A stretch of DNA of 64,000 nucleotides from Bacteroidota bacterium (GTDB taxonomy: Bacteria; Bacteroidota; Bacteroidia; B-17B0; Aurantibacillaceae). The notes beneath the pieces were generated by a model. The model had not been told where the DNA came from and did not search any database. It saw nothing but the letters and a program-made list of their open reading frames with translations. This document shows, one piece after another, positions 932-1,717 of this stretch. The stretch spans positions 1 through 64,000 of the forward strand of contig JAJONO010000035.1 of the NCBI GenBank assembly GCA_021323535.1, written 5' to 3'. Both the position numbers and the translations under genes were made by a program. How positions within the stretch are numbered: position 1 is the stretch's first letter; every line of letters starts with the position of its first letter.

Positions 932-969
932 CCTTCAAGGTTTAACAAGTAAATCAGGAACCTTGAAGG
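932..969. repeat. REP-like palindrome at the 3' end of the RAYT gene
   Basis: CCTTCAAGGTT (932-942) and AACCTTGAAGG (959-969) form a perfect 11-bp inverted repeat with a 16-nt spacer. The transposase stop codon (TGA, 935-937 reverse strand) and its last codons lie inside this palindrome. The same 11-bp arms recur at 1679-1711 on the other side of the gene, which is the arrangement expected for a REP family served by its own RAYT. Confidence 0.75.
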
Positions 970-1546
970 TCTGACGTTCATTCATAACCGCTTTAAAATT
1001 ATTAAGATCATCAAACCATGTAATTAGTTCTTCACGTTTTATAAAAGTCTCCTTCTCACCCACAAGATCTATATAAGAGGAATATTTCCACATTAACGGA
1101 TCGGTACACAAACCCGATTCGATAGGATTAAAGTTAATGTAATGAACGAGTTTTAACAGATATGAATTATCTGACACTTTAATTCTTTTGTAGGGATGCA
1201 TAAACAGGCTTCCCTTACGTTTATGCATTTTATTAAAAGCTTTTGTATATCCGTTAAAAAAATTACTGAAATGTTGAGACATAAGAATTCTTAAATCAAT
1301 TTTCTTTGTCCTACTGCCGAAAAAAACATTCAATTCGTTTTCTGGTTTCATGCGTATCAGCAAATGAAAGTGATTTGGCATTAAGCAGTAAGAGAATGTT
1401 TCCGCAATTGGTTCGATGTACAATTTATACTGTTCTATAAAATACTCATAGTTGTTATGATTCAAAAAAAGTTTCTCATTTCCATTAGCTCTGTTAAATA
1501 TGTGATATGTGGTGGATGGTAAAAGTTCTTCGGTTTTGTTTTTCAT
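935..1546 (-). CDS. REP-associated tyrosine transposase (RAYT, Y1/IS200-like)
   Basis: A 203-aa single-domain Y1 transposase. The HUH motif is in MPNHFHLLI (His59-Phe60-His61), preceded by YHIFNRAN near residue 14. The likely nucleophile is Tyr100 in FNGYTKAFN, followed by KRKGSLFMHPYKRI, the RAYT equivalent of the 'GxLFxxRYK' segment. RAYTs cleave and rejoin single-stranded REP hairpins. No accessory TnpB is present and no transposon ends are visible, so this is a resident RAYT rather than an IS200 copy. It is flanked by palindromes with identical 11-bp arms, and its C-terminus (FKVPDLLVKP) is encoded by one of them. The ORF is intact, so it may be active. Confidence 0.85.
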   Translation of the reverse strand: MKNKTEELLPSTTYHIFNRANGNEKLFLNHNNYEYFIEQYKLYIEPIAETFSYCLMPNHFHLLIRMKPENELNVFFGSRTKKIDLRILMSQHFSNFFNGYTKAFNKMHKRKGSLFMHPYKRIKVSDNSYLLKLVHYINFNPIESGLCTDPLMWKYSSYIDLVGEKETFIKREELITWFDDLNNFKAVMNERQTFKVPDLLVKP

Positions 1547-1626
1547 AGCTAGAATTTCAAAATCAACTCTCTTAAATATCGTTACACCTTGGAGGTGGGG
1601 GAGGCAGTACTCTCACAAATCTTGAA

Positions 1627-1711
1627 GACCTTGTTAAAGAGACAGAAACCTCAAAGGACCCCACGCCTTTCTTAAAGACCTTCAAGGTTAAAGAGGCAGA
1701 AACCTTGAAGG
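1627..1711. repeat. Second RAYT-linked palindrome plus a decayed copy
   Basis: CCTTCAAGGTT (1679-1689) and AACCTTGAAGG (1701-1711) form a perfect 11-bp inverted repeat with an 11-nt spacer. A degenerate relative lies at about 1627-1660 (CCTTGTTAAAGAGACAGAAACC against CTTCAAGGTTAAAGAGGCAGAAACC in the intact copy), with diverged outer arms. Together they fill the 171-bp gap between the RAYT and the radical SAM gene. Confidence 0.65.
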
Positions 1712-1717
1712 ACTTCG

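Follow-up and report, generated by a model that had tools for sequence, protein, structure and literature searches.

A gene for a RAYT-type Y1 (HuH) transposase lies on the minus strand near the start of the window, i.e., the whole stretch of 64,000 nucleotides from a Bacteroidota bacterium contig (JAJONO010000035.1, assembly GCA_021323535.1) that was analysed. The gene is bracketed by two REP palindromes, one of which holds the end of the gene itself. The features of the locus are the following.

935–1546, minus strand: RAYT-type Y1 (HuH) transposase gene, 203 aa, assigned from the open reading frame, family matches and the nearest solved structure, TnpA-REP 4er8.
1364–1375, minus strand: HuH motif NHFH, residues 58–61, invariant in the alignment.
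1124–1141, minus strand: tyrosine motif YINFNP, residues 136–141, with the Y---NP signature given for class 2 in the text of PMC6006769.
930–971, minus strand: 3′ REP palindrome holding the gene end, with arms at 932–942 and 959–969 and a 16-nt loop, defined by exact arms and fold.
935–970, minus strand: codons 193–203 (TFKVPDLLVKP) and the TGA stop (935–937), within the 3′ REP, read from the sequence; the peptide is predicted to be disordered.
About 1624–1663, plus strand: decayed REP, a direct copy of the 5′ REP minus a few bases, defined by alignment, with no fold.
1675–1716, plus strand: 5′ REP palindrome, inverted relative to the 3′ REP, with arms at 1679–1689 and 1701–1711 and an 11-nt loop, defined by exact arms, alignment and fold.

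Both catalytic motifs, HuH (NHFH) and tyrosine (YINFNP), are intact in the protein. It scores 50.5 bits against the NCBIfam model REP_Tyr_transpos, which is under the curated equivalog cut-off of 80 for that model, and 23.1 bits against Pfam Y1_Tnp, for which the cut-off is 23. The structure model has a mean pLDDT of 87, and the closest solved structure is that of TnpA-REP bound to a REP hairpin (4er8), which is reached both by fold search (E 1.2e-07) and by sequence profile (E 2.7e-06). A Y1 HuH fold with the HuH and Y---NP motifs characterizes RAYT, or TnpA-REP, in the broad sense, and so does a low copy number, unlike that of an insertion sequence. The window gene has both: it is single-copy, with one match in its own genome, and three other Y1 genes of the same genome, which match the IS200-type Pfam model strongly, are not recovered with the window protein. 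These sequence comparisons support reading the gene as a domesticated Y1 (HuH) transposase of RAYT type. Beside the window RAYT lies a radical-SAM gene (1718–2791). A RAYT is also found near the same radical-SAM gene in genomes G039 and G013 (L141 and L142), in the opposite orientation; in G039, another gene is placed between the two, and no flanking REPs remain. In the nearest genomes, the radical-SAM gene has no RAYT beside it.

The 11-bp arms are identical and exact in the two flanking palindromes (932–969 and 1679–1711), and together with the intact motifs this bears out the initial annotation, which had described an intact Y1 transposase between palindromes with identical 11-bp arms. As single-stranded DNA, both palindromes are much more stable than dinucleotide shuffles (z of -4.5 to -5.3). 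Because their feet are asymmetric, with GACC at one end and GGAC at the other, the 3′ and 5′ REPs can be recognized as mutually inverted, which is the usual layout of REPtrons (PMC2817692). The GT[AG]G tetranucleotide is absent from the hairpin foot of both window REPs, and it is found near the foot in 6 of the 79 flanking palindromes of the RAYT family. The decayed copy, noted earlier at 1627–1660, covers about 1624–1663, in the interval from the gene to the 5′ REP. Its alignment with the 5′ palindrome identifies it as a true relic, and its fold is lost (z 0.9). The claim that the 3′ end and the stop codon lie inside the gene's own palindrome also proved correct: residues 193–203 and the TGA are coded by the 3′ REP, and on the gene strand the TGA sits in its second arm.

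Just upstream of the gene start, a short palindrome (CACCTTGGAGGTG, window 1586–1598) resembles a single REP half-site. The palindrome arms are themselves near-palindromic in most family members (L037, L035, L041, L047, L050 and others), e.g., ACCTGTCAGGT, and each REP could thus consist of two smaller hairpins in inverted arrangement.

The genome-wide abundance of the arms was counted by pattern searches, with the reversed pattern as a control. In the 5.31 Mb genome of the window, the 11-bp arm occurs 14 times (2 for the control), exact arm pairs occur 4 times (0), and pairs of the shorter core, CTTCAAG..CTTGAAG, occur 9 times (0); that is, the flanking REP is repeated genome-wide, as is typical of RAYT loci. 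The arms are few in this genome, far below the usual REP copy number of >100 (PMC2817692), yet far above chance. The initial annotation had proposed a test of arm enrichment and named genome-wide rarity as its refutation, and enrichment is what was observed. The copies inspected on contigs C25, C59 and C46 are intergenic. Only 4 of 40 genomes of the genus contain the exact arm pair; within the genus, G028 has 20 exact pairs, three of them directly downstream of a RAYT gene that is a relative of the window's. Beyond the genus, the counts are 28 exact pairs in G216 and 23 in G270, whose RAYTs, 55–56% identical to the window RAYT, are flanked by the same arms. Other relatives have different arms, and other genomes contain repeats of another arm type. 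The window palindromes are members of a real dispersed REP family.

Several other arrangements of the arms were seen. The REPs of G028 have identical arms and a nearly constant loop length, with loop sequences that vary widely among copies. In the genome of the window (G000), five dispersed elements (L147–L150) carry the same core arms inside out, with GGTC facing the loop and AAC/GTT outside: C46:12421-12458, C46:12541-12575, C46:17310-17344, C73:44211-44245 and C121:15033-15067. Each has a similar loop that contains CTC, and the elements may represent REP half-sites joined in the opposite orientation. In G108, the sole exact CCTTCAAGGTT pair of the genome is located inside a RAYT gene (C33:79316-79342), and the single CCTTCAAGGTT pair of G415 is in or beside a RAYT locus (C6:107129-107155).

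As a norm of the family, the 3′ palindrome, where found, mostly starts 60 nt or less past the stop codon. The gene ends inside its own 3′ palindrome in 5 of 67 full-length genes, i.e., the window gene (L018), L046, L076, L078 and L085. The arms and tails of these five are unrelated in sequence, the overlap is not clustered on the gene tree, and the tree requires five separate changes (L085 is on a long branch), so the overlap arose several times independently among related genes. A route is visible in the sister genes L043 and L046 (support 100/100), in which the distance from the conserved motif to the REP is equal (57 nt): the TAA stop of L043 is TTA in L046, and the L046 frame runs on into the REP, which stayed in place. 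On these aligned sequences, stop loss beside a REP is shown to be one route to the overlap, in L043/L046 only.

The distance from the conserved C-terminal motif to the REP is 23 nt in the window gene, compared with 38–101 nt in relatives with a clear motif. Because the REP is unusually near the motif, a small deletion is likely too, while a shift of the REP toward the motif could also stem from a new insertion. No relative with more than 58% identity to the window RAYT was found, even in an order-wide search, and the ancestral 3′ end of the window gene is therefore unreadable; a contig scan with the window RAYT gave five matches, with best segments of 37–43% identity. The tail TFKVPDLLVKP has no counterpart in any relative found. 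The conservation of the palindrome-coded tail, which had been suggested for examination in relatives, thus fails, and relatives with the same tail but no palindrome, which had been named as a refuting case, were not encountered, since no relative has the tail.

Probably (at about 0.72), the locus is a REPtron whose 3′ REP entered the reading frame by stop loss, probably together with a small deletion, and whose tail is tolerated. The starting point would be a domesticated Y1 transposase gene bracketed by two inverted REPs; the enzyme presumably recognizes such REPs in single-stranded hairpin form and disperses them over the genome. The original stop would then have been lost, probably with a small deletion, and the 3′ REP, usually located a few to ~60 nt past the stop in relatives, would have been drawn into the frame. 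Translation would pass from the first arm through the loop to a chance in-frame TGA in the second arm, where it would end, and the 11 added residues would follow the last helix as a disordered tail that is tolerated. We infer both the action of the window enzyme on the window REP and the particular mutation that occurred in the window lineage. As for the tail, the structure model is confident to about residue 190, and its pLDDT is 52 and then 37 in the last blocks; the tail after the last helix is predicted to be disordered, and it is probably for the most part a tolerated, neutral accident.

The initial annotation had suggested self-embedding or a recent capture of the gene end by the repeat. 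The enzyme end is indeed REP-coded, but a special event is not needed, since a 3′ palindrome shortly past the stop is the family norm, and the overlap can arise by simple stop loss, as in L043/L046. Capture in the strict sense, in which the transposase gene would have received a new copy of its own REP at the 3′ end, in place of the old C-terminus and stop, seems unlikely. REPs do occur in frame within the genes of relatives, REP insertion in RAYT genes is described for subclass 2.4 in the text of PMC6006769, and the window REP is nearer the conserved motif than usual; however, it lies roughly at the normal 3′ REP position of the family, and no second, older 3′ REP is left in the interval up to the next gene start (903). 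The position of the 3′ palindrome between two same-strand genes would also suit a transcription terminator, but both this reading and that of a mere chance hairpin at the gene end are scarcely credible and were rejected: the same arms are present on the other side of the gene and recur as dispersed pairs elsewhere in the genome (0 for the reversed control), and no T run follows the stem.

Selection is another way to account for the tail. The REP-coded tail would regulate the enzyme, e.g., by lowering its activity, and the REP and the peptide would be kept together. In E. coli, the activity of TnpA-REP rises on removal of the last 13 residues, which suggests a regulatory tail (PMC8266576), and by analogy a regulatory role of the window tail is possible; moreover, tails of REP origin recur. 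Against this, the recurrence shows no clustering on the tree, the five tails share no sequence with each other and are absent from relatives, and the window tail is predicted to be disordered. The lack of conservation argues against a family-wide function, and we regard a selected tail as quite improbable. Stop loss with a tolerated tail is the reading we prefer, and it would offer a simple way for repeats to join the enzyme that is thought to spread them.

REPs are also found in the interior of the genes. About 25 of 77 relatives, in contrast to the window gene, have an in-frame REP between HuH and Y, which codes for peptides such as TLQGFKTLEGL and HLTGFENLSG; in-frame internal REPs have been reported for subclass 2.4 in the text of PMC6006769. 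Among 14 loci, the mean identity of internal and flanking REP arms is 0.83 within a locus vs 0.64 between loci, a value reached in 0 of 20,000 permutations, and because in 2 of the 14 the paired stretch is probably no REP at all and the permutations ignore relatedness, this likeness is only a lead. Internal REPs with this likeness to the flanking ones may nevertheless matter more than the 3′ overlap. As a long shot, the REP could be at once a DNA target and a coding module: internal and terminal REPs would be kept matching the flanks, and the REP-coded linker or tail would tune the enzyme that acts on the same REP. If this were true, recognition site and protein sequence would be coupled. In any case, Bacteroidota RAYTs with GTAG-less flanking and internal palindromes provide many natural enzyme–REP pairs for testing specificity change.

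The locus shares with the known REPtrons of RAYT (TnpA-REP) genes a single-copy Y1 gene between two inverted REPs, dispersed REP copies, and REPs very near the stop codon (Nunvar 2010, PMC2817692; Bertels and Rainey 2011, PMC3116915). Unlike those REPtrons, its REPs have no GTAG foot, near-palindromic arms, a low copy number in this genome, and a 3′ copy that is translated. Subclass 2.4 (group 4), as described in the text of Quentin 2018 (PMC6006769), has REPs within the transposase reading frame that leave the frame unbroken, as here, and the internal REPs of the window gene's relatives are at the position published for this subclass, between HuH and Y. However, the cases in the published text are internal REPs of the GT[AG]G type, whereas in the window gene the 3′-terminal REP gives the tail and the stop; moreover, the GT[AG]G REPs of the subclass are missing, and so is its WQ, the W being replaced by F in nearly all members of the window gene's family. 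Subclass 2.6 (RAYT group 5), according to the same text, also belongs to Bacteroidetes and has atypical flanking structures that lack the GT[AG]G foot and have copies elsewhere in the genome, and such REPs are what we found. Its published motif is NH[LIV]H with WQ, but the window has NHFH and F for W, and NHFH is present in most members. Subclass 2.6 is also marked by a 21-residue insertion between helix C and strand 4; in the window model, about 12 residues are placed between these elements. Judging by motifs, the family (NHFH, F for W, YIHxNP, and GTAG-less REPs) fits neither 2.4 nor 2.6 fully.

There is also a precedent for the stop codon. GTAG REPs supply stop codons to flanking ORFs, and flanking REPs or TIRs that overlap the 3′ end of RAYT/TIRYT genes are marked in the figures of the same paper (PMC3733652). 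In those cases the terminal GTAG provides the stop as its TAG, whereas the window gene stops at a TGA of the second arm, reached after a translated arm and loop. On REP-coded RAYT tails, only general statements were found in the literature covered. REPs inside RAYT genes and REPs that supply stop codons are already published, and the REP-coded tail and stop at the 3′ end of the window gene are a variant thereof.
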